Of a DNA stretch of 32,249 bases, positions 12,309 to 28,161 are shown one piece after another (position 1 is the stretch's first letter; each line of letters starts with the position of its first letter). Origin of the DNA: a virus. The notes beneath the pieces were generated by a model, which worked only from the letters and a program-made list of their open reading frames with translations, searched no databases and was not told where the DNA came from. Location of the stretch: positions 1-32,249 of IMG/VR virus record IMGVR_UViG_3300044638_001935. One strand, 5' to 3'. A program made the position numbers and the translations under genes.

Positions 12309-13363
12309 AAGTGTTAGCCCTATGGGAAGGCATGGGTGGAGTTGAATACCACCGCTTATACACACCCCTGAAACGATTGCAGATTGATTACCCTGATGAC
12401 ATCACCGTCAGCATATCCCAAAACTTTGAACGCAATGGAATACCGCATTTATCTAACTACGACCTTGTCATCTTCAACAGATGGCTGGGAGAGAACCACT
12501 ACGAGATACTCCACTACCTTGCAAAGAACGGAATTAAATACATCGTGGACATCGATGACTATTGGGTACTTCCAAAACACCACCCAACATATAAGTACTT
12601 CCGGGAACACAAATTAAAGCAGCAGATCATCGATGGCATTAGGTATGCCGATGGTGTGACCACGACAACCGATTATTTGGCGCAGAAAATATCCAAGTAC
12701 AACCGCAATGTGCAGGTGCTACCAAATGCACTTGACCTTACAGATGACCAGTGGTTGGCCACACCACAGGAACGGGAGTATTTTACATTTGGCTGGGTTG
12801 GTGGACTTACCCACAGCAACGACATCATGATACTATCCGAGGCCATCGAACGCATCTGCAACGAGCATGACAATGTCCGCTTTGTTTTGTGCGGGTGGAT
12901 GGCAAATAATTACATTTGGGATAGCATCTTGTACAAGTTCAACGGCAACAACCCGGTACTTCGGCCACAGGTATTAGTCAGCCATGCACAGCAGCCCAAC
13001 GAGTACGGCAATTTTTACCGCCTTTTTGATTGTGCCCTTGCACCATTGGAACAAAACGAATGGAATAGCTGCAAGAGTGAGCTGAAAATCATTGAAGCGG
13101 CTGCGTATGGATTGCCCGTGATTGCATCGGGAGTTGAACCATACCTGCAACACCTGAATAATGCAGGGGTGAAGTTCTGCCTGAACACACCAAACGAATG
13201 GTACAATGCCATGAAACAGGCAATGGAAAGCCAACCCGAAGCAAACAAAATCAGGGGGGTTGCCAATCAGGTTTACTGCAATCAACACCACAACCTTGAA
13301 GCCATAAACAAAGACCGATTGGAATTTTATCAATGCACATTAGCTACACCCGGCCATTCGTAA
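12305..13363 (+). CDS. GT4-family glycosyltransferase
   Basis: The 352-residue protein has a two-domain GT-B layout: N-terminal GMGGVEYHRLYTPLKRL and YIVDIDDYW (about 79-87), a hinge with VLPNALDL, then FTFGWVGGLTHSNDI (about 160-174) and the donor-site region CKSELKIIEAAAYGLPVIASGVEPY (about 259-283), the E-x7-E area of GT4 enzymes. It would transfer a sugar from a nucleotide donor. AGGAG precedes the ATG. Its place next to terminase and structural genes favours modification of virion components or host surface, but this is inference. Confidence 0.85.
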   Translation: MKVLALWEGMGGVEYHRLYTPLKRLQIDYPDDITVSISQNFERNGIPHLSNYDLVIFNRWLGENHYEILHYLAKNGIKYIVDIDDYWVLPKHHPTYKYFREHKLKQQIIDGIRYADGVTTTTDYLAQKISKYNRNVQVLPNALDLTDDQWLATPQEREYFTFGWVGGLTHSNDIMILSEAIERICNEHDNVRFVLCGWMANNYIWDSILYKFNGNNPVLRPQVLVSHAQQPNEYGNFYRLFDCALAPLEQNEWNSCKSELKIIEAAAYGLPVIASGVEPYLQHLNNAGVKFCLNTPNEWYNAMKQAMESQPEANKIRGVANQVYCNQHHNLEAINKDRLEFYQCTLATPGHS

Positions 13364-14520
13364 CGGATTACCAACGGGCTATACTTGATAGCCCTGATAG
13401 GTACACCGTGACTGCTGCTGCTACGAAAGTGGGCAAGACAGCCAGTCATATCATTTGGCTATTTGAACAGGCATTGAAGCTAAAAGAAAACCAATCGGTG
13501 TGGTGGGTGGCACCTGTGTATCAACAGGCGGAGATTGCATTCAGGCGGATGCGTAACCAAGTAACCGTGCGTGACTTTTTCAAGGTGAATGAAAGCAAGT
13601 TGCGTTTAACCCTGCCAACCGGGGGGATAATTGAATTTAAGTCCGCAGACAAACCCGACAACCTTTATGGTGATGACGTCTATGCTGCGGTGTTTGATGA
13701 GTTCACACGGGCGAGAGAAGATGCGTGGTATGCGTTGCGTTCTACCCTGACCAAAACCGAAGGCAAGGCAAAGCTAATCGGCAACGTGAAAGGCAAAAAG
13801 AACTGGGGTTATAAGCTATCCGAACGGGCAAGGATGGGTGAGCAGAACTATGGATTTTTTAAGATTACCGCTTATGACGCAGTCAATGCTGGTGTCCTGA
13901 AATTAGAGGAAGTTGAACAGGCCAAACGTGACTTGCCACAGCACATATTCAGTGAGTTGTATTTGGCCGAACCAACCGAGGATGGTAGCAACCCGTTTGG
14001 ATTGAGCTACATTATGCAGTGCATTGCACCGATTTCCACCGCACCTGTTGAGTGGTACGGAATTGACCTTGCAAAGTACAGCGACTACACGGTAATCATT
14101 GGCCTTGACTCCGAATACCGGGTGTGCTATTTTGACCGCTTTCAAAAGGACTGGGCCCAAACCGAACAGCACATCATCAGGGTGGTAGGCAACACCCCTG
14201 CTGCCATAGATAGCACGGGAGTAGGTGACCCGATTGTTGAGAAAATACAACGGCATTGTCCACGTTCCGTTGGGGTGAAGTTCACATCAGTAAGCAAACA
14301 ACAAATGATGGAGCAGTTGACAGCCGATGTCCATGCTGGACTGATTAAGTTTCCCGAAGGCATAATCGCAGATGAGATGCGTAACTTTGAATTTGAACAC
14401 ACGGCAACGGGCCTTCGTTATTCTGCACCATCAGGGTTGCACGATGATGCTGTTTGTGCTTTGGCACTTGCCCGGTATTGCAGCCAAAAGAATAAGAAAG
14501 GGGTATTTGTCATTGTTTAA
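13333..14520 (+). CDS. terL: Terminase large subunit
   Basis: The 395-residue packaging motor has an ATPase domain with Walker A-type AATKVGKTAS (29-38), Walker B VYAAVFDEFT (D122-E123), and SEADK-like substrate contacts. The C-terminal RNase H-like nuclease domain shows GIDLAKYSDYT (D245), AIDSTGVGD (D293) and GLHDDAVCALALA (D371-D372). It pumps DNA into proheads and cuts concatemers. The genome's permuted ends suggest headful packaging. The gene overlaps the GT4-like gene by 31 bases. Confidence 0.93.
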   Translation: MHISYTRPFVTDYQRAILDSPDRYTVTAAATKVGKTASHIIWLFEQALKLKENQSVWWVAPVYQQAEIAFRRMRNQVTVRDFFKVNESKLRLTLPTGGIIEFKSADKPDNLYGDDVYAAVFDEFTRAREDAWYALRSTLTKTEGKAKLIGNVKGKKNWGYKLSERARMGEQNYGFFKITAYDAVNAGVLKLEEVEQAKRDLPQHIFSELYLAEPTEDGSNPFGLSYIMQCIAPISTAPVEWYGIDLAKYSDYTVIIGLDSEYRVCYFDRFQKDWAQTEQHIIRVVGNTPAAIDSTGVGDPIVEKIQRHCPRSVGVKFTSVSKQQMMEQLTADVHAGLIKFPEGIIADEMRNFEFEHTATGLRYSAPSGLHDDAVCALALARYCSQKNKKGVFVIV

Positions 14521-14525
14521 TTTTG

Positions 14526-14533
14526 TATATTTG
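14526..14533 (+). promoter_or_regulatory. -7 box TATATTTG, 4 bases before a start codon
   Basis: The same box and 4-base spacing as the leftward promoters. The -33 element is poor: the nearest TTTG (14506-14509) is only 16 bases upstream, so promoter strength is uncertain. Confidence 0.5.
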
Positions 14534-14537
14534 TAGC

Positions 14538-14756
14538 ATGGAAAACAAACAAACAGCAGTAGAATTTTTGGAAGAAAAATACAGACCAAAGGGCTATATT
14601 ACGGCAGAAGAATTTGCACAAGCCAAAGAAATGGAGAAGGAGCAGATTGAAAATGCTTATCAAGCGGGGCAAGACAATGTAGATTATACTGCATCTTTTG
14701 TTGACGAAAATGGATTAGAAAATTACTACAACAAAACATACGGAGGTAACAAATGA
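14538..14756 (+). CDS. Small acidic protein, paralogue of the 11989 gene
   Basis: The start is ATG 14538 (MENKQTAVEFLEEKYRPKG), supported by the aligned paralogue start and the promoter box 4 bases upstream, rather than TTG 14523. The 72-residue product shares its first half with the 11989 gene and adds EKEQIENAYQAGQD and a C-terminal ENYYNKTYGG. This full form matches a small protein type I often see in Bacteroidetes phages. Function unknown. Confidence 0.75.
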   Translation: MENKQTAVEFLEEKYRPKGYITAEEFAQAKEMEKEQIENAYQAGQDNVDYTASFVDENGLENYYNKTYGGNK

Positions 14757-15346
14757 AATTACCAAAGAATTGGAATGAAATCAGCATAGCGCAGTTTCAG
14801 GAATTGCAGCTATTGACCGAGCCGAGTTTTGACAATCAGCTCAAAACATTGTCCATTTTATCAGGCAAAAAACTGGACGAAATAGAAGAGATGCGGATTG
14901 TGGACATCACGGCTGCACTATCGAAACTTGCATTTATGGCAGAATTACCCACCGCAAAAAACGTGGGTAGCTTCCGTATCGGCAACACCCTTTACAAATT
15001 CGCAGCCAATCAGCACCACTTGCAAGCCCACCAATTTATCATGGTGCAGGACTTGTTTGCTGAAAAGGACAAGTGGGTGCAGAACTTGCACATGATTATG
15101 GCGGCATTGTGTGTGCCTTACCGGATATTCCCACCAAAGCGCAAGGAAGTCAAGACAGATGACTTTGAAAAGATTGCTACCCAGTTCAGGGAGAAGATGC
15201 CGATATCTTTTGCATACGCCTACACGCTTTTTTTTTCTCTATGCTTACCGGAATTACTCGAAGCTACCCAAGTATATTTAGAGCAGGAAGTGGAGAAGTT
15301 GAAGAAGATAGCAGACGAAAAGACCGCCCCGCCATCAGTTGGCTGA
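14753..15346 (+). CDS. Putative tail assembly chaperone (gpG-like)
   Basis: GGAGG lies 6 bases before the ATG. The 197-residue helical protein begins LPKNWNEISIAQFQELQLL and has LSILSGKKLDEIEEM, a pattern I link to tail assembly chaperones of Bacteroidetes phages. Near its end, codons CTT TTT TTT TCT (15227-15238) carry a T_TTT_TTT slippery heptamer; a -1 slip there enters the overlapping frame that runs to 15552. Its location in the tail module supports a G/GT-type arrangement. The chaperone role is inferred from architecture. Confidence 0.65.
   Translation: MKLPKNWNEISIAQFQELQLLTEPSFDNQLKTLSILSGKKLDEIEEMRIVDITAALSKLAFMAELPTAKNVGSFRIGNTLYKFAANQHHLQAHQFIMVQDLFAEKDKWVQNLHMIMAALCVPYRIFPPKRKEVKTDDFEKIATQFREKMPISFAYAYTLFFSLCLPELLEATQVYLEQEVEKLKKIADEKTAPPSVG
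15228..15236 (+). promoter_or_regulatory. Candidate -1 ribosomal frameshift site (T9)
   Basis: Nine T residues include T_TTT_TTT in the correct phase of the upstream gene. The -1 frame is open from 15169 to 15552 across this point. A homopolymer sequencing error would look the same. Confidence 0.55.
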
Positions 15347-15552
15347 AAATGGTGGACAACATCGCAGGGGGTGACCGCACCAAGTGGGACTTCTTTTTGA
15401 ATATGCCGCTTGTGGAGTTCTTGAACGCAGTCAGTTTCCAAACAGAAAAAGACAGGGCAAGGACAGAACGATTAAACACAGCAGCGCAGTCGGCAAAATC
15501 TGCCAAAGATAGCACCGTTTACAAGATTGCATTGATGCAGGAAATGTTGTAA
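15241..15552 (+). CDS. Tail assembly chaperone, frameshift extension (gpT-like)
   Basis: This frame overlaps the end of the gpG-like gene in the -1 frame. Its first ATG (15241) has no Shine-Dalgarno and lies 4 bases after the T run, so it is more likely expressed as a -1 fusion of about 266 residues than alone (103 residues). It contains KWDFFLNMPLVEFLNAVSF and a charged helical C-terminus. In lambda the analogous gpGT fusion binds the tape measure and recruits tail tube protein; the same is inferred here. Confidence 0.6.
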   Translation: MLTGITRSYPSIFRAGSGEVEEDSRRKDRPAISWLKMVDNIAGGDRTKWDFFLNMPLVEFLNAVSFQTEKDRARTERLNTAAQSAKSAKDSTVYKIALMQEML

Positions 15553-15559
15553 GTTTGCA

Positions 15560-15646
15560 TTTCCGTTGGTGTAAGCAGGAATGAATACTGCCTTTGAGTA
15601 GCATCTCACTTTTGTGAAGACATGGGTGCAAATCCCATACGGATGA
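15560..15646 (+). ncRNA. tRNA-like structured RNA (uncertain)
   Basis: An 87-base stretch folds partly like a class II tRNA. The acceptor strands 15560-15566 and 15639-15645 pair with one mismatch and one wobble; a D-arm GTGT/ATAC has a loop with GG; a 4-bp variable-arm hairpin TCAC/GTGA is present; and the T-arm ATGGG/CCCAT has a 7-base loop TGCAAAT. The anticodon stem is poor (three pairs; loop TTTGAGT would read UGA, Ser) and competes with the D-stem. Position 55 is G, not T. A decayed tRNA or another structured leader is equally possible. Confidence 0.25.
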
Positions 15647-15671
15647 AGCCCCGGCCATTGTGTCGGGGTTT
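15646..15671 (+). terminator. Hairpin with T-rich tail
   Basis: AAGCCCCG (15646-15653) pairs with CGGGGTTT (15664-15671) around a 10-base loop, followed by CTACTTTTAT. It sits between the chaperone and tail completion genes. Confidence 0.55.
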
Positions 15672-15683
15672 CTACTTTTATAA
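15672..15683 (+). promoter_or_regulatory. CTACTTTTATAA start-proximal element
   Basis: Copy of the recurrent element, just before the GTG start at 15686 and directly after the hairpin. Confidence 0.45.
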
Positions 15684-15685
15684 GT

Positions 15686-16270
15686 GTGAACATTACCAAA
15701 GCGCAACTGGATGCAATCAACAAAGGATTGCTGGATAAGTTCGGAATACCCGACAGCCCGATGCCAAATTCATTACTTGCTGACCTTGTTTTAGGTGTGG
15801 CTCAAAGATTGGTGGATGCGTTGCGGCAAGACATTACAGAAAAGAAATTAGTCGCTACCAAAAACCTGCGTTCAAGTGTGAACATCGGGGACTTTCAGGA
15901 GAATGCCAACGGAGTGACCGTGCCTATTGAAATGGCGAATTACTATTTGTGGGCTGACCAAGGTAGGCGCAAAGGCAAACGGCCACCGATTGCATCTATT
16001 GAGGAATGGATAAGTGCAAAGGGTATTCCTGTCCGTAAATCAAAAGAGCAAAGCACACAATCAGTTTTAGAAGCCCGTAAATCTATGGCCATTGCCATTG
16101 CCCGTAAAATAGCATCCAAAGGAACAATAAAGAGGTTTGGTTACAAAGGCGGTAATTTTATAGGCGATGTGCTGACCCCTGCCAATATCGATGCAATCGC
16201 ACAGCACTTGGGAGATGCCTTGGGTAAACCCATTACCGCATACGTTACAAGTGAAATTGCCACTACATAG
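15686..16270 (+). CDS. HK97 gp10-like tail completion protein
   Basis: GTG start at 15686 (GTG 15684 is out of frame). The 194-residue protein has ANYYLWADQGRRKGKRPPIASIEEWISAKGI (about 87-117), which matches the YY-x-DxGRxxGxxPPxxxIxxWIxxKG core of HK97 gp10-type tail completion proteins of Bacteroidetes phages. It would act at the head-tail interface or on the tail end. A terminator-like hairpin begins at its stop codon. Confidence 0.75.
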   Translation: MNITKAQLDAINKGLLDKFGIPDSPMPNSLLADLVLGVAQRLVDALRQDITEKKLVATKNLRSSVNIGDFQENANGVTVPIEMANYYLWADQGRRKGKRPPIASIEEWISAKGIPVRKSKEQSTQSVLEARKSMAIAIARKIASKGTIKRFGYKGGNFIGDVLTPANIDAIAQHLGDALGKPITAYVTSEIATT

Positions 16271-16292
16271 GTAGGCGAAAACCTACTTTTTT
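16271..16292 (+). terminator. Short intrinsic terminator-like hairpin
   Basis: GTAGG (16271-16275), a 6-base loop, CCTAC (16282-16286), then six T. The right arm plus T run is also a copy of the CTACTTTT element before the ATG at 16298. Confidence 0.5.
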
Positions 16293-16297
16293 AAGTA

Positions 16298-17494
16298 ATG
16301 GCAATCACTATCAATACCGAGCCGAACGATGTCGCCCCGGTTTATTCGGATATCAGTTACGTGGTCACTTCGACCAACTACGCACAGGCAAATTTCAAGT
16401 TTATTGCGGTAATCAAAAACGCATCAGGCACGACCATTGCCAAACTGAAAGCCCCGATATTTCATGGAACTACCGACAAAGGTGTGTTCAACATCAGCCG
16501 CATATTGCAAAACTATGTGACCTACGATTTTACCCAAAACCTGACCGCAATCAGCAAATGCAATAACAGCTATCTTGCATACAGCGTGGAATTTGGCGAG
16601 GAGTATGGCGGCACGGAATACCTGAACCTTGCATCCGACACTGGTAAATATGTGTGGAACGGGTTGTTTAATCTGTACGGAAGTGAAACACCCGACACTT
16701 ACAAGATAAATGTCACACCCAATTCAGCCAAATTTCTCACACGTGTGCGGCCAAGGATTGTGACCCGTGAGCAGTACGACTACCTTTATTTTTTGCTGCT
16801 CGGTTTTAACATCGAACCAAAGGTGATAGCATACAATGCCGCAGGTTCAGTCATTGCCACAAGTTATTTGAAACTGCCTTGGACTCCAAGCACAGCAGAC
16901 ACATCACAATTCATGGTTAGATTTGGTGCAGGTGTGGTTCAGTTAAACGCACTCACAGCAGGGGAGTTGACATCGGGAACACCCGGAAGCGTTGTGCCTG
17001 TTGGCACGGCATATTACACCATTCAATTCACCCAGACGATTGGTGGCAATTTCAGCGAGGTGTACCGCTTTGATGTGGTGGAAGAATGCAGCAAATATGT
17101 GCCGCAATATCTTTACTTCCTGAACCCGTTGGGTGGCTTTGAAAATGTGCGTTGCAGCATGGCATCACGTGACAAATACAGCGTGAGCAGAAAGCAGTTT
17201 AAACGTAATAACTACACGCTGACAGGCAACACATTTGCGTATGACAAAACAAAGCATGGGATGACTTCCTATGCTACCGAAAAGACAAAGCAGGTTGTCC
17301 TGAACACAAACTGGCTGAATGAAGTTGAGTTTGAATGGTTACAAGATTTGATTGCTTCACCTGTGGTTTTCTTGGGTGACATTCCGGTCAATATCACAGA
17401 CACTAATTATGAGGTGTTTGATTACATTGACGGCCCGAATAACCTACAAATAACCGTAGAATATACAGAACCTGAAAGGTTGCAAAACGCATGA
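16298..17494 (+). CDS. Tail structural protein, distal tail/baseplate-like
   Basis: The 398-residue protein is beta-rich throughout with many aromatic residues and no signal peptide. It has repeated beta-sandwich-like segments (YVVTSTNYAQANFKFIAVIKNASG, FNISRILQNYVTYDF) and a C-terminal part (VVFLGDIPVNITDTNYEVFD). This is the kind of distal tail or baseplate protein seen in the tail module of Bacteroidetes siphoviruses. It overlaps the next tail gene (ATGA). The exact position in the tail is inferred from context. Confidence 0.7.
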   Translation: MAITINTEPNDVAPVYSDISYVVTSTNYAQANFKFIAVIKNASGTTIAKLKAPIFHGTTDKGVFNISRILQNYVTYDFTQNLTAISKCNNSYLAYSVEFGEEYGGTEYLNLASDTGKYVWNGLFNLYGSETPDTYKINVTPNSAKFLTRVRPRIVTREQYDYLYFLLLGFNIEPKVIAYNAAGSVIATSYLKLPWTPSTADTSQFMVRFGAGVVQLNALTAGELTSGTPGSVVPVGTAYYTIQFTQTIGGNFSEVYRFDVVEECSKYVPQYLYFLNPLGGFENVRCSMASRDKYSVSRKQFKRNNYTLTGNTFAYDKTKHGMTSYATEKTKQVVLNTNWLNEVEFEWLQDLIASPVVFLGDIPVNITDTNYEVFDYIDGPNNLQITVEYTEPERLQNA

Positions 17495-20268
17495 ACAACG
17501 TAAGATTAGTATGCGGTGGGTACAGCGTGGATTTACCTACCGATTTTGGAATACAGATAAATAAGTCCATTGCTGATATTCGGGAGCCGGAAAGCAGATC
17601 ATCGGATTGGACAAAGACATTCACGCTACCCGGTACAAAGACAAATAACAAGCTGTTCACTCACTTGTTTGATTTGAACTTGTCTATCCGCAACACGACA
17701 TCCACGAATTTCAGCCCCGATTTCAATCCTAACCTGAAAGCCGATGCGCTGTTGACCGTGGATGAGGTCACCCAGATAGAAGGTTTTATCCGTTTGTTGT
17801 CGATTAAGGTTAACGACCTGAACCAAATAGAGTACGAATGCAGTATGCACGGGGAACTGGCTGACCTATTTGCAAAGATTTCAGATGCCAAATTAGAGGA
17901 ATTAGATTTCACCGAATACAATCACGTGCTGAATGCGACCAACATATTCAATTCATGGGACACTTCGATAATCAAAAACAGCAGCGGATATGTTAATTTC
18001 AGCGGTGGCGCACCCATTGGTGAGGGATATGTGTACGGGTGGGTTGACCCCGGTATTTATGCCGATTATAAGAAATTAGATTTAAACGATGTCACCCCGT
18101 ATATCTATGCGAAAACGGTGGTTGATAAAATATTTAGCGGTGCAGGGTACACATACAGCAGCGGTTCGTTTTTCAACACAGCGCAGTTCAAAAGATTGGT
18201 TGTGCCGTGTCCATCTCGGATGCCGTTCCTTTCGGAAACCCAAATACAAAATAGGCAGTTTGAAGCAGAAATACCAGCAGCGAGTGGTACAACATATTCA
18301 TCAGGACAGAAAATTCTTTTTACAAGTGAAATAAGCGACCCATCAAATCAGTATGACTCAGCAACATCTATATTTACAAATGATTATTCTGGGCAACGCT
18401 ATGACTTTTTTTTATACACAAACGCATCCATAACAAACGTAGACCCAAATTCTGATTATTCTGTTTCTTATTTCTTATATGTAAATGGTATAAAATTAAG
18501 AACAAGTCAACCAATATATAAGTCAACTACATCAGGCACTTCATTTTCTATTGACAATACTGTTGTTTTTGAAAACATTGTTTTAAATAGTGGCGATTAT
18601 GTTGAAATCAAATTTGATGATGTTTATGTGTTTGAAGCTGCTGTAAACAAATATGTACCAATATCAAATACATACACACAAAATTCTGGCAGCAAGTTTT
18701 ACAACGGAATTGTAGATGGTATTTACGGCCTTGGAGATACAATGGATTTCACGGGGTTTTTCAATGGCGTAGAAACAAAGCAGCGTGAATTTATGCGGTG
18801 GCTTTTCACCATGTTCAATCTTTACATCGAAGCTACCGAAATTGATAAAACGCTGGTGGTTTTACCGCGTGAGGAATTTTTGCTCAATACGGTCAGGGAT
18901 TGGACAGAAAAACGGGATTTATCGCAGCCGCTTGAAATTACCCCGATGGGTGAACTTGAAGCAGGTAAATATATCTTTACCTACAAAGAGGGTGACGATG
19001 ACGGCAATAAGAACTACAAAGAGGACTATGCACGGATTTATGGTGACAGACAGATATTGGTTCAAAATGACTTTGTGAAAGATGAAAAGAAAATCGAAGT
19101 GGGCTTTGTACCGACATTGATTGTCAAGCCACAAAACGAATTGGATAAATACCTACCTGAAATTCAGACTGCATCCGAAAGCACAAAGTCAGGCAACTTG
19201 CGGATATTGCAGTACAAGGTGAAAACGTGCGGTAACTATTACGCAACCGAAGGAAAAAGAAGGGGTACATTTGTACCGCCTTTTACCATTGAAACCAAAT
19301 ATCCTTTCATGGGGCATTTGGATGATCCGTTGGCTTCGACAACCGACATCAATTTCGGGCTACCCCGTTACATCGGTTTGCAGTCAAATACACCCGTAAC
19401 CAACAACAACCTTTATAATGCCTATTGGCGCAAGTACATCAATGAAATAACCGACAAGGACAGCAAGTTGGTAAAGGGTAGTTTCTACCTTACCCCGGCC
19501 GACATGGAAAAGCTGTCATTCCGTGACTTGTATTTCTTTGATGGCAATTACTTCCGCCTGAATAAGATTGAGGACTATGACCCGATTAACCCATCGGTAA
19601 ATATCTGTGAGTTTCTGTTCCTTAAAACAGGGCCTACATTCACAGCAACAACCGGAAGCGTGGGCGGTGGCGGTACGCAGTCAAGTGGTGGTGGCGGTGA
19701 CGCACAGGAAACCGAAAAAGACCCGATTGGTAGCGGCAACCTTCCCGGTAAGGTAATCCAAAACAAAGGGTTTTCGCTGGGTGACTTCAATGCGGTGGGT
19801 GATGGCATTGTTGCCGGGGATGCGGTGACAAACTACGGCAGGGCAAATGCTGCCTTTGCGACAAGCGGAACAACATTCCTTCCCGATAGTGAACGCAGCA
19901 TCGTGATTGGTGAAGGTGTGCAGAATGTAGGGGCTGACGAAGTGTGGCTGCAAGGGCAGTTGATGACAGCAAATAATTTCGGCACAAATCGTTTTGCTTT
20001 CCCGCCTAACAATTATAATATTGACTTACATGACGATATAATTATTTCGCTTGGAACAGGCAACCACACATTGACATTACCTGACGCATCAACCGCATCC
20101 CACAAATTAATTTGGGTTGTAAAAAAAGGTGCGCAGGGAACACTCACCATTGACGCATACGCAGACCAGTTGATTGACGGACAAGCAAATTACACAATAA
20201 ATAATCATTACGGAACGGCTTGTTTAGTATGTGATGGAACAGAATGGTACGCATTAACAAACAAATAA
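17491..20268 (+). CDS. Large tail-tip protein with C-terminal receptor-binding-like region
   Basis: The 925-residue protein starts with a tail hub-like segment (ADIREPESRSSDWTKTFTLPGTKTNNKLFTHLF, about 29-61). After a Gly-rich hinge (about residues 720-735) come a beta-roll-like SERSIVIGEGVQNVGADEVWLQG region and a fibre-tip-like domain (HTLTLPDASTASHKLIWVVKKG and LVCDGTEWYAL). This suggests a baseplate protein that carries its own receptor-binding tip. Roughly residues 270-400 are noticeably more AT-rich than the flanks, suggesting a swapped module. Exact role inferred. Confidence 0.75.
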   Translation: MNNVRLVCGGYSVDLPTDFGIQINKSIADIREPESRSSDWTKTFTLPGTKTNNKLFTHLFDLNLSIRNTTSTNFSPDFNPNLKADALLTVDEVTQIEGFIRLLSIKVNDLNQIEYECSMHGELADLFAKISDAKLEELDFTEYNHVLNATNIFNSWDTSIIKNSSGYVNFSGGAPIGEGYVYGWVDPGIYADYKKLDLNDVTPYIYAKTVVDKIFSGAGYTYSSGSFFNTAQFKRLVVPCPSRMPFLSETQIQNRQFEAEIPAASGTTYSSGQKILFTSEISDPSNQYDSATSIFTNDYSGQRYDFFLYTNASITNVDPNSDYSVSYFLYVNGIKLRTSQPIYKSTTSGTSFSIDNTVVFENIVLNSGDYVEIKFDDVYVFEAAVNKYVPISNTYTQNSGSKFYNGIVDGIYGLGDTMDFTGFFNGVETKQREFMRWLFTMFNLYIEATEIDKTLVVLPREEFLLNTVRDWTEKRDLSQPLEITPMGELEAGKYIFTYKEGDDDGNKNYKEDYARIYGDRQILVQNDFVKDEKKIEVGFVPTLIVKPQNELDKYLPEIQTASESTKSGNLRILQYKVKTCGNYYATEGKRRGTFVPPFTIETKYPFMGHLDDPLASTTDINFGLPRYIGLQSNTPVTNNNLYNAYWRKYINEITDKDSKLVKGSFYLTPADMEKLSFRDLYFFDGNYFRLNKIEDYDPINPSVNICEFLFLKTGPTFTATTGSVGGGGTQSSGGGGDAQETEKDPIGSGNLPGKVIQNKGFSLGDFNAVGDGIVAGDAVTNYGRANAAFATSGTTFLPDSERSIVIGEGVQNVGADEVWLQGQLMTANNFGTNRFAFPPNNYNIDLHDDIIISLGTGNHTLTLPDASTASHKLIWVVKKGAQGTLTIDAYADQLIDGQANYTINNHYGTACLVCDGTEWYALTNK

Positions 20269-20269
20269 A

Positions 20270-22309
20270 ATGGCAGAAACAATAGTTGGAATAAAACTTA
20301 ACGCATCGGTAAGCGGTGCGGAACAGGTTAAAAAGTTAAAAGAAGAAATCAAGGCAGCCGAAGCCGAAGCCAAAAAGATTGCGAAAGAATTTGGTGAGAG
20401 CAGCAAGGAAGCACAGGCAGCAGCCGAAAAGGTTACCAAATTAGCGCAAGGGCTTGACAGCTTCAAATCTATAAAAACCCAAATCAGGGAAGCTACACAG
20501 GAAGCTGCAAGGTTATCACAGCAGTTTGGTGAATTTTCACCCGAAGCAGCGGCAGCAGCTCAAAGGGTTGCAGGGCTTAAAGACCAAATGGATGACCTGA
20601 ATGAGAAAATTCAGGCGTTGCACCCCGACAAGTTTAATCGAATTAACACCATAGCCAAAGGGGTTGCAAATGGCTTCCAAGCTGCGCAGGGTGCGATGGC
20701 TTTGTTTGGTGCTGAAAGCGAAGATGTGCAAAAAGCCCTTTTAAAAGTGCAAGGTGCAATGGCATTCGCACAGGGATTGGAAGGTTTGGATGCGGCAAAA
20801 AAACAATTCACAACCCTTGGTCAAGATGCAGTAAAGGCATTCAAAGAAATGACCACCGCATCCAAGGTTTTCATGGCTACCGGGCTTGGATTGCTTTTGA
20901 CAGGACTTGCAACCGTTGCCGCATACTGGGATGACATTAAGATTGCGCTTGGATTGGCCAAGTCCGAAATGGACAAGATGAACGCTGCCATGAAAGTTGC
21001 CGAGGGATTGACAAGGCAACAGGCGGCTGATTTGCAGTATTACAATAAAATTGTACAGGACACCAAAAAGAGTGAAACAGAAAGAAAAGGTGCGCTTGAC
21101 AAACTGAAAGAAGCAGGTATTGCAACCGATGATGTGAATATTGCCAACGCAAATTCATTGGAGCAGTTGAACATCCGCACACAAAAACAGATATTGTTGA
21201 TTGCCCAACGTGCAAGGACAGAAGCGGCATCCCAAATCTTGCAGGAAAAAACCAAACGTTTATTGGAATTACAAACGGGTGACCTTGATGAGCAAACTTC
21301 TTCATGGGATAAGTTTTACGCTGGGGCTGTTGGTGCATTGACAGGCATAAATAATGGCGCACAAGAATTGGCAAAACGTGGTTTTGCAAATCTAAAAGAA
21401 GCACAAAAAGATGTTAATGACTCCACAAAAGTTTACAACAACGAAAGAAATAAACAACTTGTTCTTCACGGCCAATCTATCGCAACTGCCGAGGAAGTAA
21501 AATCAACTCTTGAAAAACAAACAAAAGCGCAGAAAGAACTAAATAAAGCACAAGAGCCAACAAAAGCAGAAAAATTAAAAGCACAGCTTAAATTAAGAAA
21601 TTCTATTTTATCCGAGAGTTTTAAACTTGCCGAAAAAAGCACAAAAGAAAGCGAAGAAAGAAAAGCAACTTTTGAAAGAAATGCTCGTGAAGTACGAATT
21701 GAACGTGCATTCCAAGATATTGAAGATTATAAAAAGAAAGTCGAAGAGGAAGTAAAACTTGAAGAGGAAGCAGCAAAGAAAAAAGAAGAGATACGCTTAA
21801 AAGAAATTCAAGATAAAAAGGATGCAGAAGCCCAAATGGTTGCATTGACTGCTGGTGGATTTGGTGCTATTGCTGAACTTGCTGATGCCTTTGCAGGAAA
21901 GTCGGAAGAACAGCAACGCAAGGCATTTGAGATTAAGAAAAAAGCATCAATAGCACAAGCGATTGTTGAGACTATACAAGCTGCACAATCGGCATACGCA
22001 TCACAAATGGCTATAACGACACCCGATGCGCCTGTTCGTGCTGCTATTGCTGCTGCCCTTGCAATAGCATCAGGTGTGGCAAGAGTGCGTAAAATTGAGC
22101 AAACACAATTTGAGTCAAAAGATATAGGTGGTGGAGGTGGTGCAACTGGCACACCAGCACAAAGCCCCGGTGCAATGACCCCACTCACAGGCGGTGCGCT
22201 ACCCGAAGAAGGGCAGTTCGGTGGCATGGGCAGGGTGTATGTGTTAGAGGGTGACATCACCAAAACGCAGACCCGTGTCCGCAGGTTAAGAAATACAAGT
22301 GTCGTTTAA
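20270..22309 (+). CDS. Tape measure protein
   Basis: The 679-residue protein is almost entirely helical, with long coiled coils rich in A, E, K and Q (residues 15-130 and 390-530). One hydrophobic segment (FMATGLGLLLTGLATVAAYW, about 200-220) and an Ala-rich C-terminal helix (AQSAYASQMAITTPDAPVRAAIAAALAIASG) are typical of tape measure proteins, which set tail length and are ejected into the host membrane. The region at about 21410-21840 is more AT-rich and K/E-rich than the rest. It starts one base after the tail-tip gene. Confidence 0.88.
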   Translation: MAETIVGIKLNASVSGAEQVKKLKEEIKAAEAEAKKIAKEFGESSKEAQAAAEKVTKLAQGLDSFKSIKTQIREATQEAARLSQQFGEFSPEAAAAAQRVAGLKDQMDDLNEKIQALHPDKFNRINTIAKGVANGFQAAQGAMALFGAESEDVQKALLKVQGAMAFAQGLEGLDAAKKQFTTLGQDAVKAFKEMTTASKVFMATGLGLLLTGLATVAAYWDDIKIALGLAKSEMDKMNAAMKVAEGLTRQQAADLQYYNKIVQDTKKSETERKGALDKLKEAGIATDDVNIANANSLEQLNIRTQKQILLIAQRARTEAASQILQEKTKRLLELQTGDLDEQTSSWDKFYAGAVGALTGINNGAQELAKRGFANLKEAQKDVNDSTKVYNNERNKQLVLHGQSIATAEEVKSTLEKQTKAQKELNKAQEPTKAEKLKAQLKLRNSILSESFKLAEKSTKESEERKATFERNAREVRIERAFQDIEDYKKKVEEEVKLEEEAAKKKEEIRLKEIQDKKDAEAQMVALTAGGFGAIAELADAFAGKSEEQQRKAFEIKKKASIAQAIVETIQAAQSAYASQMAITTPDAPVRAAIAAALAIASGVARVRKIEQTQFESKDIGGGGGATGTPAQSPGAMTPLTGGALPEEGQFGGMGRVYVLEGDITKTQTRVRRLRNTSVV

Positions 22310-22311
22310 AC

Positions 22312-22323
22312 CTACTTTTATAA
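22312..22323 (+). promoter_or_regulatory. CTACTTTTATAA start-proximal element
   Basis: Copy of the recurrent element before the protease ATG at 22326; it straddles the region just after the tape measure stop. Confidence 0.45.
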
Positions 22324-22325
22324 TT

Positions 22326-23333
22326 ATGGAATTACCAGTGTACAAAATTGTGGTCAATGATGATGACGAAACAGGCGTGGAGTTTGTTTCTCTCGTTGAC
22401 CGACCAGCCATACAAAAAGACTTCATGCTGTTCAATGAGCAATTTGTTGAACCGGGCCCGACTGAAAACGAAGATGAATTTATCAGCCGTTGCATCCCGG
22501 TAATGATTGGCGAAGGAATGGAGCAGGAACAAGCGGCAGCCGTTTGTTACAGCAAATGGGAAAGCAGACAGAAATTTGAAAGCTATGATGACTACCCCGA
22601 AGCGGCCAAAGAAAATGCAAAGGTTGCACTCCGTTGGGCCGAAGAAAACGGATGGGGTGACTGCGGAACTGCGGTTGGTAAAATCAGGGCTAATCAGTTA
22701 GCCAATGGTGAAGCCATTACCCGTGACACCATTGCAAGGATGGCAGGGTTTGAAAGGCACAGGCAAAACAGCGACAAGGAATTAGGTGACGGATGTGGCC
22801 GCCTGATGTGGTTGGCTTGGGGTGGTGACGAAGGTATTGAGTGGGCAAGTCGCAAATTGCAGCAGATTGATATGCGTCAGGCATACTCGGTTCAATCCGA
22901 AGAAAAGCGCATTGTCACAGGCCCTGCAATGTTGGCCGATTTACCCATTTACCGCTACGATGATATCAGGGGTGAGTACTACGTTACATTCGATGCCGAC
23001 ACCATTTGGAAGATAGCAAAGAAATTTGTCCGCAATGATGCCTATAAAGCAGTCAATACCGACCATGCCAACCCCGTGAAAGAGGGTGTTCACATGATTG
23101 AGTCATACTTCATTGACCGCAAACGTGGTGTGATGCCACCCACCGGGTACGAAGATGCAAAGGATGGCAGCTGGTTCCTGACCTATTTAATAGACAATGA
23201 GGAAATATGGGCAAAAGTTAAGGATGGCGAATGGAAAGGTTTCAGCGTTGAGGGGCTTTTTGACATGGAAGAACAGGATGAAGTCCTTGAAATGATGCGT
23301 GAAATAACCGCCATGCTGAAAAATTTTGCATAG
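22326..23333 (+). CDS. XkdF-like prohead protease
   Basis: Start at ATG 22326 (MELPVYKIVV), right after the CTACTTTTATAA element; a GTG at 22299 lies inside the tape measure gene. The 335-residue protein begins with the XkdF-like VYKIVVNDDDETGVEFVSLVDRPAI, carries an inserted cysteine-containing segment (ISRCIPVMIGEGMEQEQAAAVCYSKWE) and a YPEAAKENAKVALRWAEENGW domain, and ends with the protease core (NTDHANPVKEG, His; WKGFSVEGLF, Ser). It should process scaffold and capsid proteins during head maturation. Confidence 0.82.
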   Translation: MELPVYKIVVNDDDETGVEFVSLVDRPAIQKDFMLFNEQFVEPGPTENEDEFISRCIPVMIGEGMEQEQAAAVCYSKWESRQKFESYDDYPEAAKENAKVALRWAEENGWGDCGTAVGKIRANQLANGEAITRDTIARMAGFERHRQNSDKELGDGCGRLMWLAWGGDEGIEWASRKLQQIDMRQAYSVQSEEKRIVTGPAMLADLPIYRYDDIRGEYYVTFDADTIWKIAKKFVRNDAYKAVNTDHANPVKEGVHMIESYFIDRKRGVMPPTGYEDAKDGSWFLTYLIDNEEIWAKVKDGEWKGFSVEGLFDMEEQDEVLEMMREITAMLKNFA

Positions 23334-23345
23334 GGCAAAACATAA

Positions 23346-23357
23346 CTACCTTTTAAG
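23346..23357 (+). promoter_or_regulatory. CTACCTTTTAAG start-proximal element
   Basis: Variant copy of the recurrent element before the scaffold ATG at 23362. Confidence 0.4.
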
Positions 23358-23361
23358 ATAT

Positions 23362-23928
23362 ATGGAATTTAAATCAGAATTAGCCGAAATGAAGTTATCT
23401 CTTGCCGCATTCATGGCAGAGGTAAAACAGCGTTTCAGCGAAGAACCTGTGCCTGCTGCGTTTGGTGAGTTGACTTTGGTTGATGGAACTATCGTGGTTT
23501 TTGAAGGTGAGGAACTTGCCGCTGGAATGCTATTGAATGTTAAAGGCGAAGAAGGTATCGTTCCTGCTCCCGATGGAGTGCATGAAACTACCACTGGTCT
23601 TTTGGTAACTACCAAAGATGGTGTGGTTGAAATGATTGAAACCAAAGAAGAAACTCCCGTTGAGGAAGTTGAGGTTGAAAATCAGTTTGCATCCGTTGAG
23701 CAGTTCGACGCACTCCGTGCCGCTAACGAAGAACTGGCAGCGAAAATCGCTACCCTTGAAACTGCACTTGTAAACATACTGGGCAAAGTTGAAGAAACTT
23801 TCAGCGTGTTTGAAAAGTTCGCAGCCACCACCCCTGAGCCGAGCAAAAAGCCATTCGGTTCAGTTAAACCCGAAAAAGAGGAAAATTTCTTTGGCTTTGT
23901 TTCCGCAATCAAATCAATCAAAAAATAA
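23362..23928 (+). CDS. Putative scaffolding protein
   Basis: Start at ATG 23362 (MEFKSELAEMKLSLAAF), after the recurrent element. The 188-residue acidic protein has an N-terminal helix, a beta-rich centre (LTLVDGTIVVFEGEELAAGM and LLVTTKDGVVEMIE), a coiled coil (EQFDALRAANEELAAKIATLETAL) and a basic C-terminal tail (FVSAIKSIKK), a layout typical of scaffolding proteins whose tail contacts the capsid shell. It lies between protease and capsid genes. Confidence 0.75.
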   Translation: MEFKSELAEMKLSLAAFMAEVKQRFSEEPVPAAFGELTLVDGTIVVFEGEELAAGMLLNVKGEEGIVPAPDGVHETTTGLLVTTKDGVVEMIETKEETPVEEVEVENQFASVEQFDALRAANEELAAKIATLETALVNILGKVEETFSVFEKFAATTPEPSKKPFGSVKPEKEENFFGFVSAIKSIKK

Positions 23929-23937
23929 AATAAAATC

Positions 23938-24885
23938 ATGGCATTTGACGTAACAGGTCTCACCAATTACACCAAAGAAGAGAGCTTAAACCTTCTGACC
24001 AAAGCGATGTTCACCGCCAAAACTGCACGTCTGTTGCAGGGTGCTGGACAGGTTCTCCCCGGTATCAAATCTGCTGAAATACTGCCTTTGCTGTATTCAG
24101 ACGTTTACTTCCAATCTGACAGCTGCTCTTATCAGACAAGCGGTAACACTACCCTGTCCAAGCGCACACTGACCGTTGGAAAAGTTAAGGTTCAGGAAAC
24201 TTTGTGCCCCAAAGACCTTGAAACCAAATACACACAGAAAGCTCTTGCCGCAGGTGAAGCTATCGACATGGGTGTATTCACCGAGCAAATCGGAGCTGAA
24301 AAAGCTGCCAAAATTGCCGAAGCTATCGAAACTTCAATTTGGCAGGGTGATACCACAGGCGGTGCTGGCAACTTGGGTTACTGGGATGGCTTCCTGACTA
24401 TCCTCGGAGACCTCGGTTTCGGTGGTGCAGGTGACCCTATCAAAGGTAACGTGGCTAACGCTTACGCTTCTATCACTGCTTCCAACATCGATGACATCAT
24501 CACTACCATTTACAGCGTTATCCCTGCTGAACTGCTTGGAAAACCTGACCTGATGATTGCTATGGGTACAGATACTTTCCGTCTTTACAGACAGTGGTTG
24601 GTAACTGCTAACCTGTTCCACTACCCTGCAAACGAAATCGCAGAGATGGAGATTGTTGACCCTATCACTGGCATCAAGATTTACGGTCTGCATGGCATGA
24701 ACGGAACGAACAAAATCGTTGCTGGTCTGTGGAGCAATTTCTTCTTGGGTACTGACATGATGAACGAAGAAGAAGAGTTTGAATTTATCTTCAATCCTTT
24801 CGAGCGCAGAGTACAATTCCACACCGCTTTCAAATACGGATGTCAGGTTGCTTACCCTGAGCAAGTTGTTCTTTTCACACTCTAA
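23938..24885 (+). CDS. Major capsid protein
   Basis: The 315-residue protein fits an HK97-fold capsid protein by size, position after protease and scaffold, and pattern (VQETLCPKDLETKYTQKAL; EQIGAEKAAKIAEAIETSIWQGD, a long spine-like helix; VIPAELLGKPDLMIAMGTDTFRLYRQW; FNPFERRVQFHTAFKYGCQVAYPEQV at the end). Codons are more even than in neighbours, fitting high expression. A strong intrinsic terminator follows 28 bases after the stop. Confidence 0.88.
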   Translation: MAFDVTGLTNYTKEESLNLLTKAMFTAKTARLLQGAGQVLPGIKSAEILPLLYSDVYFQSDSCSYQTSGNTTLSKRTLTVGKVKVQETLCPKDLETKYTQKALAAGEAIDMGVFTEQIGAEKAAKIAEAIETSIWQGDTTGGAGNLGYWDGFLTILGDLGFGGAGDPIKGNVANAYASITASNIDDIITTIYSVIPAELLGKPDLMIAMGTDTFRLYRQWLVTANLFHYPANEIAEMEIVDPITGIKIYGLHGMNGTNKIVAGLWSNFFLGTDMMNEEEEFEFIFNPFERRVQFHTAFKYGCQVAYPEQVVLFTL

Positions 24886-24913
24886 TTTTAACCGAATAGA
24901 GAAAGTTTAACCC

Positions 24914-24945
24914 GGGGGGTGGGGAAAAACCCTACCCCCCTTTTT
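24914..24945 (+). terminator. Strong intrinsic terminator after the capsid gene
   Basis: An 11-bp GC stem with one G-T wobble (24914-24924 with 24930-24940), an AAAAA loop, and TTTTT after it. Confidence 0.9.
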
Positions 24946-24959
24946 AATAAAAAAAAGAA

Positions 24960-25472
24960 ATGAGTTGTCAATTAACTTCGGGGTTCACCCTTGACTGCAA
25001 GACGGCTGCTGCCGGCATTAAAAATATTTGGCTCGTGGAATTCGATGCTAAATCTACATTAACCAAATCATCAGGCGAAGTTTCTGCCCACACTTTGAGT
25101 GGTGGCAAAAGCTACTTCAAATATGAGCTTGAAAAGGAAACTGGCTCTATGACATGGCGCACCATTCCTTCTACTGAAAACGGAACCGTGTTTTACGAAG
25201 CTGACTTGGTTGCACGTTTGCACAAAGTGACTACCGCACAGCGTAACGAGATTAAACTTCTCGCACAGAACAGAATGTTAGCCATTGCCCTTGATGCAAG
25301 TGGTGACTACTGGCTGCTGGGTGCTGACTATGGTGTTCAGTTGCAGCAAAGTGAAACAAACTTCGGACAGGCGTTCGGTGACTTCAAAGGTCATGTATTA
25401 AATTTTCTCCACAAAGAGACCGATTTACCTTTGAAAGTTCAGGCCGCTGTTGTAACTTCGCTGGGTCTTTGA
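24960..25472 (+). CDS. Probable major tail tube protein
   Basis: The 170-residue protein starts MSCQLTSGFTLDCKTAAAGIKNIWLVEF and is beta-rich with a central helix (TTAQRNEIKLLAQNRM), matching the pattern of tail tube or related abundant virion proteins that follow the capsid gene in Bacteroidetes phages. It sits between two strong terminators, as expected for a highly expressed structural gene. A head decoration or connector role is the main alternative. Confidence 0.6.
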   Translation: MSCQLTSGFTLDCKTAAAGIKNIWLVEFDAKSTLTKSSGEVSAHTLSGGKSYFKYELEKETGSMTWRTIPSTENGTVFYEADLVARLHKVTTAQRNEIKLLAQNRMLAIALDASGDYWLLGADYGVQLQQSETNFGQAFGDFKGHVLNFLHKETDLPLKVQAAVVTSLGL

Positions 25473-25500
25473 TTTTTTCATAGTGTTTTCATGCAGAAAG

Positions 25501-25524
25501 GGTCGCCATTTGGCGGCCTTTTTT
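25501..25524 (+). terminator. Intrinsic terminator
   Basis: GGTCGCC, ATTT, GGCGGCC: 7-bp stem with one wobble, extendable by A-T pairs, followed by six T. Confidence 0.88.
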
Positions 25525-25563
25525 GTTTGGTCAAAAAAAAATAAAAATATTTTTACAAAACAC

Positions 25564-25593
25564 TTGCAAGTATAGTTTTTTATATTACCTTTG
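25564..25593 (+). promoter_or_regulatory. Moron promoter, abutting the start codon
   Basis: TTG (25564-25566), 19-base spacer, TACCTTTG (25586-25593), 4 bases to ATG 25598. Same geometry as the four leftward promoters. Confidence 0.8.
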
Positions 25594-25597
25594 CTAC

Positions 25598-25957
25598 ATG
25601 AAACAAACACAAAATACCATGAACACAAAAAAAATCACAGAAATGAGCCATGAAGAAATAATGGCTTTGAGTCATCAAGATTTAATGGCTTTGAGTAAAG
25701 AAGAAAAACAGGCTTATAGCGATGCCGTAAATTTAGATTTTCATAATAAGGTGAAAATTGCAATTGACAATGGATTTACACATATACAAATAGGGTATGC
25801 TGGATGCATTAAGGTAAGAAAAAACAAAAATGGTATTTTTTATTCAATAAGAAATGGAAAAGGAACTGGTCAAGATTGTGCGCAGTTTACTGACTTAAGG
25901 GACTGCACAAAACATTTAATGCATAATGGATGGGGTAACAATATAACTTATAGATAA
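25598..25957 (+). CDS. Moron-like hypothetical protein with its own promoter and terminator
   Basis: The promoter spacing favours ATG 25598 (MKQTQNTMNTKK); ATG 25619 is an alternative. The 119-residue protein has an N-terminal repeat (HEEIMALSHQDLMALSKEE) and a C-terminal region with FTHIQIGYAGCIKVRK, GTGQDCAQFTDLRDC and GWGNN. It is AT-rich and interrupts the structural operon between terminators at both sides, the hallmark of a moron (independently expressed cargo gene). I recognise no family; anti-defence, exclusion or host-fitness roles are possible but only inferred. Confidence 0.7.
   Translation: MKQTQNTMNTKKITEMSHEEIMALSHQDLMALSKEEKQAYSDAVNLDFHNKVKIAIDNGFTHIQIGYAGCIKVRKNKNGIFYSIRNGKGTGQDCAQFTDLRDCTKHLMHNGWGNNITYR
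25661..25696 (+). repeat. Two 12-base repeats within the moron gene
   Basis: ATGGCTTTGAGT at 25661-25672 and 25685-25696, 24 bases apart and in frame, encoding the repeated MALS unit. Confidence 0.75.
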
Positions 25958-25977
25958 AAAAAATCAAAATCAAGAGA

Positions 25978-26000
25978 AGGTGGGGAAACCCACCTTTTTT
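25978..26000 (+). terminator. Intrinsic terminator with GAAA tetraloop
   Basis: AGGTGGG, GAAA, CCCACCT: 7-bp perfect stem and stable tetraloop, followed by a T run. Ends the moron transcript. Confidence 0.9.
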
Positions 26001-26018
26001 GTTTAACATGAAATCGAC

Positions 26019-26030
26019 CTACTTATATAG
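26019..26030 (+). promoter_or_regulatory. CTACTTATATAG start-proximal element
   Basis: Variant copy of the recurrent element, after the moron terminator and before ATG 26036. Confidence 0.4.
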
Positions 26031-26035
26031 ATAGG

Positions 26036-26413
26036 ATGCTGTACATAACCAAAGCAGGAACACCCGAATTGATAATCACAGGCAGAGAAAAGGTGACCGT
26101 TTCTCCCGTGTATTATCTGTTGGTGTTTGAGTCCGAAATGTCGCAGGAACAAAAGGCATTTATTGTAACCGATACCAGCACAGCACCCAACAGATACCAG
26201 TTATTTTCATTTGTAGAGGGCAGCAGCACCGCAAAAACATTGGCCGTAGGTACGCATTACTGGGCTTTATACGCACAAACTTCCTCGACCAATACCAACC
26301 CATTACTTGCATCACAGGAAATTGACCGGGGATTGGCCTATGTTACCGCATCGCATACCGCATTTAACGACCATGAGGTCAATACAACCATTAAGCAGCA
26401 CCATATAGGATGA
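26036..26413 (+). CDS. Hypothetical beta-rich virion-type protein
   Basis: The 125-residue protein is beta-rich (YYLLVFESEMSQEQKAFIV and YQLFSFVEGSS, then LAVGTHYWALYAQTS), without signal peptide or membrane helix. It immediately precedes and overlaps the portal gene (ATGA), so it is likely a head or connector component. No specific family is recognised. Confidence 0.65.
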   Translation: MLYITKAGTPELIITGREKVTVSPVYYLLVFESEMSQEQKAFIVTDTSTAPNRYQLFSFVEGSSTAKTLAVGTHYWALYAQTSSTNTNPLLASQEIDRGLAYVTASHTAFNDHEVNTTIKQHHIG

Positions 26414-28161
26414 GTTTCGATTTAATACGCATAAATTTCACGGAGTCAAAGTTGCCTAAATTCAAGGAAAACAAGAATAAAGGCATCGTGACCTTTGGGG
26501 AAAAGAATGATTTTCCCGATACGTTACTTGAATTTTACAACAGAAGCCCAAAACATGGGGCTATTGTAAGGCAGAAAGCCCGTTTTGTGGCAGGTGAAGA
26601 AACCTTGGTGGATGGCAACCCCAGCGCAGTTAAGGTAATTGAATACGTTAACCCATACGAGGGAATACAAGAGTTCAAAAATAAACTTGCACTGGACTAT
26701 GAATTGTTTAACGGGTTTGCGTATGAGGTACATTACAACAAAGTGGGGCAAATTTCTGCACTTTACCACGTAGATTTCAGCAACATTCGGACACTTGACC
26801 ACGAAATCTATATGTATGCCGATGATTGGAAAAAGGCAAAGCATGAGGACATGAAGCATTATGCCCCGTTCAATCCAAATAAGGCGCAGCCGATGGAGGT
26901 ACAATTATTCTACTTCCGTGAATATGCACCTGCCTTGGGTGTTTATCCGCTTCCACCTTATCAGCATTGTTTGCAGTATATTGAAATCGATGTTGAGATA
27001 GCCAACTTCCACAATAACAACATCCGCAACGGGTTTGCCAACGGCACACTGGTTCAGTTGTTCAAAGGACAGCCGACAGAGGAAATTGCCTTTAACTTTG
27101 AGCGCAAGTTCAAGCAGAAAACAACCGGCACGGACAATGCAGGTGGTGTGCTTATTCAGTTCAATGAGATGAACGAAAAGTCTGCGGAGATTGCACACCT
27201 GCAACCGAGCGACATGGACAAACAATTCCTGCAACTGAACGAAACGGTACAGGATGAAATCTTTATCGGCCACAACTTCCCGAAAATTCTGCTCGGTTAC
27301 GCAACCGAAGGCGCACTTGGTCAGCGTAATGAAATGATTGAAGCGTATGAACTTTTCCACAAATCATACGTAAACAAGCGACAAGTAAAACTTGACACTT
27401 GCCTTGAAAATACCCTTGAATACGTTTACCCCGGTATTGAATTAGATACAAAAGACAGCGACTTTCTCGGTGTTGATTACGTTGCATTGTATCAATTTGG
27501 CATTGTAAGCCGTGAGGAAGCACGTGAAGCACTCGGATTGCAAAACACAACCATTCAGGCGCAGAAGTTTGACGGTCACACTTGCGAATTTCACAAATGG
27601 TCGGATAATGACTTGTCAGTTTTTGCCAAATTTGGGGCTGATGAAAGCGAATTTGAGGAAGTGAAATTAACATTTGAACTTACCACCAAAGAAAAAAGGG
27701 TACTGGCTGTGGTAAATTCCGATGAAAAAGCCACATTGAAAGACATTTCCACCGCCACCAAAATAGGCGAAGAAGAAGTCATCAAGATTTTGAAGCAGTT
27801 GCAGGACAGCGGAAAGATTAACTGGACAAACAATGCAATCAAAATTACCGACATCGGTAGGGGTGAAATTGCCGACACAGAACTGCCCAAACTTGAACTG
27901 CGATACAAGTACGATTTAGACCCTGATGCGTTGCCATTGCAACCCGGTGGAAAAAGTCGTGAGTTTTGCCTTCGTATGGTGGACATGGGCAAACTTTACA
28001 CCCGTGAAGAAATCGACCAGATGTCTGCAATTTTAGGTTATAGCGTATGGCTTCGCAGGGGTGGGTGGTACACCGTGCCTGAAAGCGAACCACCTTTGCA
28101 TATTCCGCATTGCAGACACGAATGGAAACAAAGAATAGTAAGGAGAAGAAACAATGGCTAA
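26410..28161 (+). CDS. Portal protein with C-terminal extension
   Basis: The 583-residue protein has a portal core (residues 1-390): GIVTFGEKNDFPDTLLEFYNRSPKHGAIVRQKARFVAGEE, long central helices and IFIGHNFPKILLGYATEGALGQRNEMIEAYELFHKSYV. It continues with a winged-helix-like segment (about 423-483, DISTATKIGEEEVIKILKQLQDSGKI) and a C-terminal MuF/SPP1 gp7-like end with SREFCLRMVDMGKLY and HCRHEWKQRIVRRR. This looks like a portal-minor head fusion. It would form the dodecameric DNA channel of the head. The fusion is read from motifs, not proven. Confidence 0.82.
   Translation: MSFDLIRINFTESKLPKFKENKNKGIVTFGEKNDFPDTLLEFYNRSPKHGAIVRQKARFVAGEETLVDGNPSAVKVIEYVNPYEGIQEFKNKLALDYELFNGFAYEVHYNKVGQISALYHVDFSNIRTLDHEIYMYADDWKKAKHEDMKHYAPFNPNKAQPMEVQLFYFREYAPALGVYPLPPYQHCLQYIEIDVEIANFHNNNIRNGFANGTLVQLFKGQPTEEIAFNFERKFKQKTTGTDNAGGVLIQFNEMNEKSAEIAHLQPSDMDKQFLQLNETVQDEIFIGHNFPKILLGYATEGALGQRNEMIEAYELFHKSYVNKRQVKLDTCLENTLEYVYPGIELDTKDSDFLGVDYVALYQFGIVSREEAREALGLQNTTIQAQKFDGHTCEFHKWSDNDLSVFAKFGADESEFEEVKLTFELTTKEKRVLAVVNSDEKATLKDISTATKIGEEEVIKILKQLQDSGKINWTNNAIKITDIGRGEIADTELPKLELRYKYDLDPDALPLQPGGKSREFCLRMVDMGKLYTREEIDQMSAILGYSVWLRRGGWYTVPESEPPLHIPHCRHEWKQRIVRRRNNG

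Follow-up and report, generated by a model that had tools for sequence, protein, structure and literature searches.

The window, by which we mean the whole stretch of viral DNA analysed (32,249 nucleotides; IMG/VR record IMGVR_UViG_3300044638_001935), contains a run of nine T residues (T9; 15228..15236) close to the end of a gene that follows the terminase, and the features of this region given below are all on the plus strand. The terminase large subunit gene (13333..14520) was recognized by weak matches to Pfam TerL_ATPase and Terminase_3, as well as by tblastn matches to phage terminases. It is followed by an open reading frame (14753..15346), with relatives at 15-100% identity, that would encode a short, G-like product of 197 amino acids, and the T9 is read in this zero frame as CTT TTT TTT TCT, such that the window sequence holds the heptamer T_TTT_TTT in phase with the gene. 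A second open frame in the -1 register (15235..15552; 105 codons and a stop), which is homologous in relatives, would constitute the T-like second domain. The stretch from 15237 to 15346 is doubly read in the sequence, serving as the end of the short product and the start of the second domain, and the fusion of 161 zero-frame residues with the 105 from the -1 frame adds up to 266 amino acids. These readings bear out the original prediction, which had described an in-phase T_TTT_TTT within a T9 and an overlapping -1 frame that continues to 15552, giving a long product of about 266 residues. The -1 frame also has an ATG just 3' of the T9 (15241..15243), but it is not conserved.

Further downstream are a gene of 194 amino acids in the place of a tail-completion gene (15686..16270; weak match to phrog_29822, function unknown, the role being assigned by position only), two tail-region open reading frames of 398 amino acids (16298..17494; no PHROGs or Pfam family match) and 925 amino acids (17491..20268; weak match to phrog_37034), and the tape measure protein of 679 amino acids (20270..22309), identified by two PHROGs for the tail length tape measure, phrog_9483 and phrog_1506. 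The T9 gene is on the upstream side of the same tail block, but with 4.7 kb and three genes in between it does not directly precede the tape measure gene, unlike lambda-type G/GT, which sits between the genes for the major tail protein and the tape measure. The original prediction had correctly called this gene order unusual. A similar spacing was found in relatives and in Nonlabens phage P12024L, amounting to several kb where the tape measure model matched, and the presence of several genes between the two is typical of the group. The structural block as a whole (13333-28705) is also unusually ordered, in that the terminase, the putative chaperone, the tail genes and the tape measure precede the major capsid candidate (23938) and the portal (26410); portal matches were to Bacteroidota phages only, the best being Nonlabens P12024L/S. 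It is to be noted that a tRNA or tRNA-like element occurs just 3' of the long frame in relatives, where ARAGORN called a tRNA-Leu caa in L112 (5863-5937) and a tRNA-Ile in L039 (3898-3978), and a tRNA or tRNA-like element is also located downstream of the gene in L035. The corresponding interval of the window (15553-15685) retains a degenerate sequence that folds well (z -3.2) and includes a T-arm-like GGGTGCAAATCCC, but there was no ARAGORN call.

A first-order model of base composition predicts about 1.3 runs of nine or more T in the window, and one was observed; thus, the T9 by itself proves nothing, and its significance is decidable only through relatives. When the window was scanned automatically for heptamers in phase with a gene and leading into a long -1 frame, the T9 site came up together with just one other match, situated at a gene overlap on the opposite strand. 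The sole A9 of the window (25533-25541) falls in a region with a short ORF (25523-25957), on the 3' side of the gene at 24960-25472.

Relatives were gathered from IMG/VR using the protein, profiles and a cultured relative as queries, which resulted in 156 usable loci with 124 distinct sequences, representing 25 lineages at less than 70% identity and 16 at less than 50%. The run was T9 in 154 of these loci and T10 in the remaining two (L195 and L237), and no interrupted run was found among the 156. Its phase was identical throughout, the last T always opening a codon, and a homologous -1 frame of 79-111 codons followed it in all loci whose contig extends that far. When the first domains of 41 sequences were aligned (289 columns, mean identity 33%), the two Phe codons of the slip site were the sole invariant columns; the residue on their 3' side is Ser, Cys or Tyr, the first base of its codon always being T. 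As a codon-neutral check, IMG/VR was scanned for any DNA encoding FFYHLGND, a motif that covers one sub-clade. Among the 66 stretches retrieved, 63 were from the family and all 63 had the unbroken run (62 T9, one T10), and two of the three unrelated stretches used TTC. A single pattern match in Marinicella proved to be unrelated, as its -1 frame closes after 5 codons. Judging by these comparisons, it is the conservation of the T9, not its presence, that exceeds chance, and the viruses that carry it would make up a large group of Bacteroidota viruses, very distant relatives included; the search of host genome contigs found no relatives. Gp10 of Flavobacterium phage 6H, a distant relative by Foldseek, lacks the T9 and has a T6C with an early stop in the -1 frame, and its relation to the protein of the window is uncertain. 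At this locus (L293 10352-10927, minus strand), gp10 is followed by an open frame of about 100 codons that lacks annotation and looks like a second domain.

The constancy of the run also bears on the possibility that the true sequence is one open frame, either misread at the homopolymer or broken by decay of the gene. Such runs are error-prone in some sequencing methods, but the recurrence of exactly T9 in 154 loci, which come from numerous metagenome projects, as well as in the isolates P12024L and P12024S, led us to reject sequencing error, while a decayed gene is at odds with the protein-level constraint on the -1 frame; we regard both as having a negligible probability. A count of 8 or 10 T that fuses the two frames, which the original prediction had allowed for, is likewise not borne out by the relatives. 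Phase variation by replication slippage is unlikely too, since the length of the run barely varies.

As regards the coding of the -1 frame, third codon positions take 63.5% of the differences among 42 relatives in its singly coded part, which argues that it is translated in that frame, and the second domain could be aligned across 34 sequences. It might conceivably be a separate gene, translated from its own start at the ATG of 15241 or further in, with no fusion being formed; the location of that ATG just 3' of the run in the window, and the annotation of P12024L gp41 as an ORF in its own right, would agree with this. However, the L044 clade has no ATG, GTG or TTG in the -1 frame before codon 42, and the residues ahead of this codon are conserved despite the missing start, on which ground an independent start was excluded. 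Furthermore, the conserved -1 sequence starts at the slip site, and with two separate genes there would be no reason for the retention of the T9, making this arrangement highly improbable. Since the L044 clade is start-free to codon 42, and the clades examined have an upstream stop in the -1 frame, 9-23 codons before the run, the second domain appears to be reached through the run. It is, accordingly, with high confidence that we propose the synthesis of two products, one short and one long, across the T9. The programmed short and long products of the original prediction are thus strongly supported at the level of sequence by the run and the homologous -1 frame; comparison of relatives for a missing slippery site and independent starts, which it had also suggested, revealed that every one of the 156 loci has the site.

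Two machines could perform the slip. In the mechanism that we consider probable, the host RNA polymerase would slip on the T9, such that some of the mRNAs would contain U10 (net gain of one U) instead of U9. Ordinary translation of the U10 mRNA would then yield the long product of 266 amino acids in a fraction of events, whereas the unslipped U9 mRNA would yield the short one of 197 amino acids. Alternatively, the ribosome could shift by -1 at T_TTT_TTT, where two Phe tRNAs would slip back by one base, leading to the same products. This was the classic mechanism of the original prediction, of which the heptamer stands, while the lack of a detected stimulator, the pure T run and the varying frames of other families (described below) do not fit it well. 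Ribosomal slippage at the chaperone gene is general in lambda-type phages (PMC5009743), little long product relative to the short one would be enough, and the in-phase heptamer and the -1 extension in every relative agree with it. It is also true that the phase of the run never varies in the T9 family, which fits a ribosomal heptamer and counts against the polymerase. However, no stimulator was detected in the 25 lineages and the window: pseudoknot-free folding revealed RNA structure neither upstream nor downstream of the site (mean z of +0.16, +0.12 and -0.24), and there was no Shine-Dalgarno-like motif upstream. Stimulators are usual at efficient ribosomal sites, although not obligatory, and heptamers without them in E. 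coli were at most 10-fold above a background of 0.055% (PMC4066793). For bacterial RNA polymerase, efficient slippage in vivo is known at runs of nine A or T (PMC5009743), and the run in this family is an unbroken T homopolymer of about that length.

The composition of the run offers further clues. In a tetramer test conducted in E. coli with a pseudoknot, U_UU.C shifted slightly better than U_UU.U (PMC4066793), so that the absence of T_TTT_TTC from all 25 lineages is unexpected if the ribosome slips. At the eighth position of the run, C would be silent in both frames and would preserve the heptamer in 20 of the 25 lineages, and yet all 20 have T. The probability of this outcome is about 0.05 when the codon usage of both frames is considered over the 20 informative lineages, and 8e-5 if Phe usage alone is applied to all 25, the lineages not being fully independent in either case; given the former value, the evidence from this position is suggestive only. 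The purity of the run can in fact be largely explained otherwise, as positions 2-7 are needed by the heptamer, and positions 1 and 9 each provide the middle base of a codon for a hydrophobic residue in one frame or the other. Overall, slippage by RNA polymerase is favored as the probable event and slippage by the ribosome is the less likely but serious alternative, and both may contribute.

Additional evidence, by analogy, came from other chaperone genes of Bacteroidota phages. In a second family, which is annotated as a chaperone and adjoins the tape measure gene, 17 phages were read, among them B40-8, B124-14, P2559S/Y, and Parabacteroides, Alistipes, Elizabethkingia and Flavobacterium phages (loci including L299 3808-4581, L300 6271-7041, L294 14349-15114 and L368 10647-11390, with further ones in L373, L375, L377, L378, L379 and others). 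All 17 have an A run at the joint, whose length is 8 in one phage, 9 in another, 10 in twelve (B124-14 among them) and 11 in three. Relative to the first domain, the second is in frame 0 in 14 phages, in +1 in two (P2559S with A8, and BF8P1 with A11) and in -1 in Flavobacterium 1/32 (A10), whose record gives the gene as a joined CDS. Of the 14 phages with frame 0, nine have a +1 stop immediately after the run, which is the arrangement of Thermus dnaX. The odd frames of P2559S and BF8P1 could be sequencing errors of the homopolymer. The genes of a third group look like further homopolymer frameshift chaperone genes; they are Flavobacterium 11b gp38/39 (A9, with the -1 frame for the second domain), Cellulophaga phi10:1 (A8, +1; first ORF unannotated) and Cellulophaga phi12:1 gp55/56 (A9, +1), and are found upstream of the tape measure (L292 17864-18528, L298 3001-3700 and L367 30103-30814). 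Slippage by the polymerase is favored because the homopolymer is kept while the frame drifts, which a fixed -1 heptamer would not tolerate; for the family of the window, the A-run families support this mechanism by analogy, not directly. We are thus inclined, if only slightly, to the broader view that Bacteroidota siphophages generally obtain their chaperone pair by polymerase slippage on an A/T homopolymer of 8-11 bases at the joint, in at least three unrelated-looking families and in place of the lambda-type ribosomal -1 slip, the frame (-1, 0 or +1) being free to drift.

The identity of the protein was approached through its fold and its neighborhood. Neither domain matched a named family in PHROGs or Pfam, and searches of PDB by sequence, of Rfam, and of structures with the fold of the second domain were all without a match. 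The AlphaFold2 model of the short product had a mean pLDDT of 85, and the closest fold relatives of the first domain were uncharacterised phage proteins, including one of P12024S. The PDB fold search with this domain returned weak rows only, among them the HK97 tail assembly chaperone (2ob9), which matched the N-terminal part over 59 residues (Z 3.0, rmsd 3.6). Because no family model names either domain and the fold match is weak, the chaperone role is drawn from the layout, namely a position after the terminase and upstream of the tape measure, the two-domain arrangement, and the likeness to the Nonlabens phages. We consider it quite likely, although it is more weakly supported than the two products themselves; the chaperone assignment of the original prediction is therefore supported by position and layout, but neither a family model nor a strong fold match confirms it. 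Since 4.7 kb and three genes separate it from the tape measure, it is better said to work like a G/GT chaperone than to be a proven member of that family. If the lambda scheme applies, the tape measure protein would be coated by the short product, and the long product, present in few copies, would serve to recruit the major tail protein. A genuine frameshift could also produce some other tail or head-tail assembly factor in two lengths, for which the lack of a match to a named chaperone family and the several genes before the tape measure might speak. Nonetheless, the gene is upstream of the tape measure and in the same tail block wherever the tape measure could be found, a frame change at the joint of two domains is characteristic of tail chaperones, and the HK97 match, however weak, is to a chaperone, so that a different factor seems unlikely. 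Considered as a whole, the explanation that this is a chaperone gene with two products generated by polymerase slippage on the T9 is reasonably probable, and we infer all three of its elements, i.e., the occurrence of slippage, its transcriptional nature and the chaperone function.

The tail chaperone frameshift is a textbook example of conserved ribosomal recoding, and the non-subscription literature searched contained no report of transcriptional slippage in such a gene. What is known is the programmed frameshift itself; the mechanism proposed here and the strict conservation of the homopolymer apparently have not been reported for the T9 family. If the proposal is true across the phylum, it would mean that the ratio of the two proteins is conserved and not the mechanism, and it would explain why annotation overlooks or splits such genes. 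The Shine-Dalgarno interaction is little used by Bacteroidota ribosomes, and this might be a reason for a switch to slippage by the polymerase.

A close known counterpart is gp40/gp41 of the Nonlabens phages P12024L/S, which infect a marine Bacteroidota host, Persicivirga sp. IMCC12024 in the case of P12024L. In these phages, too, the gene comes after the terminase, with the same T9 in the same phase and a second domain in the -1 frame, although the protein is only about 16% identical to that of the window. The order in P12024L is terminase, gp40, gp41 (-1 frame), several genes, and the tape measure gp50; gp40 and gp41 are classified as phrog_32199 and phrog_38404 (function unknown), and the frameshift is unannotated. 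Another parallel is gpG/gpGT of lambda (Xu, Hendrix and Duda 2004; reviewed in PMC5009743), together with its counterparts, where a single gene of the tail block, located before the tape measure, likewise gives a short and a long product by a -1 change late in the first ORF. However, the lambda ribosome slips at G_GGA_AAG, whereas the family of the window has an absolutely conserved T9 with no stimulators detected. Unlike in lambda, moreover, three genes come before the tape measure in the window, and there is no detectable similarity to a named chaperone family.

The Shigella gene mxiE also carries a T9. Programmed transcriptional slippage at homopolymers is known in mxiE, spa13, spa33 and mxiA of this organism (Penno et al. 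2005, 2006; PMC5009743), and in mxiE and spa13 the slip on an A/T homopolymer alters the length of the mRNA and extends the product in another frame, as proposed here. These are bacterial secretion genes in which slippage was experimentally shown, in contrast to the phage gene of the window, for which the evidence is comparative. Functional slippage at a homopolymer of nine bases also occurs in dnaX of Thermus thermophilus (PMC5009743), the layout of which is shared by the A10 phages of the second family: frame 0 encodes the long product, and the other frames soon close with a stop. The T9 family differs from dnaX in that frame 0 encodes its short product and a slip is required for the long one.
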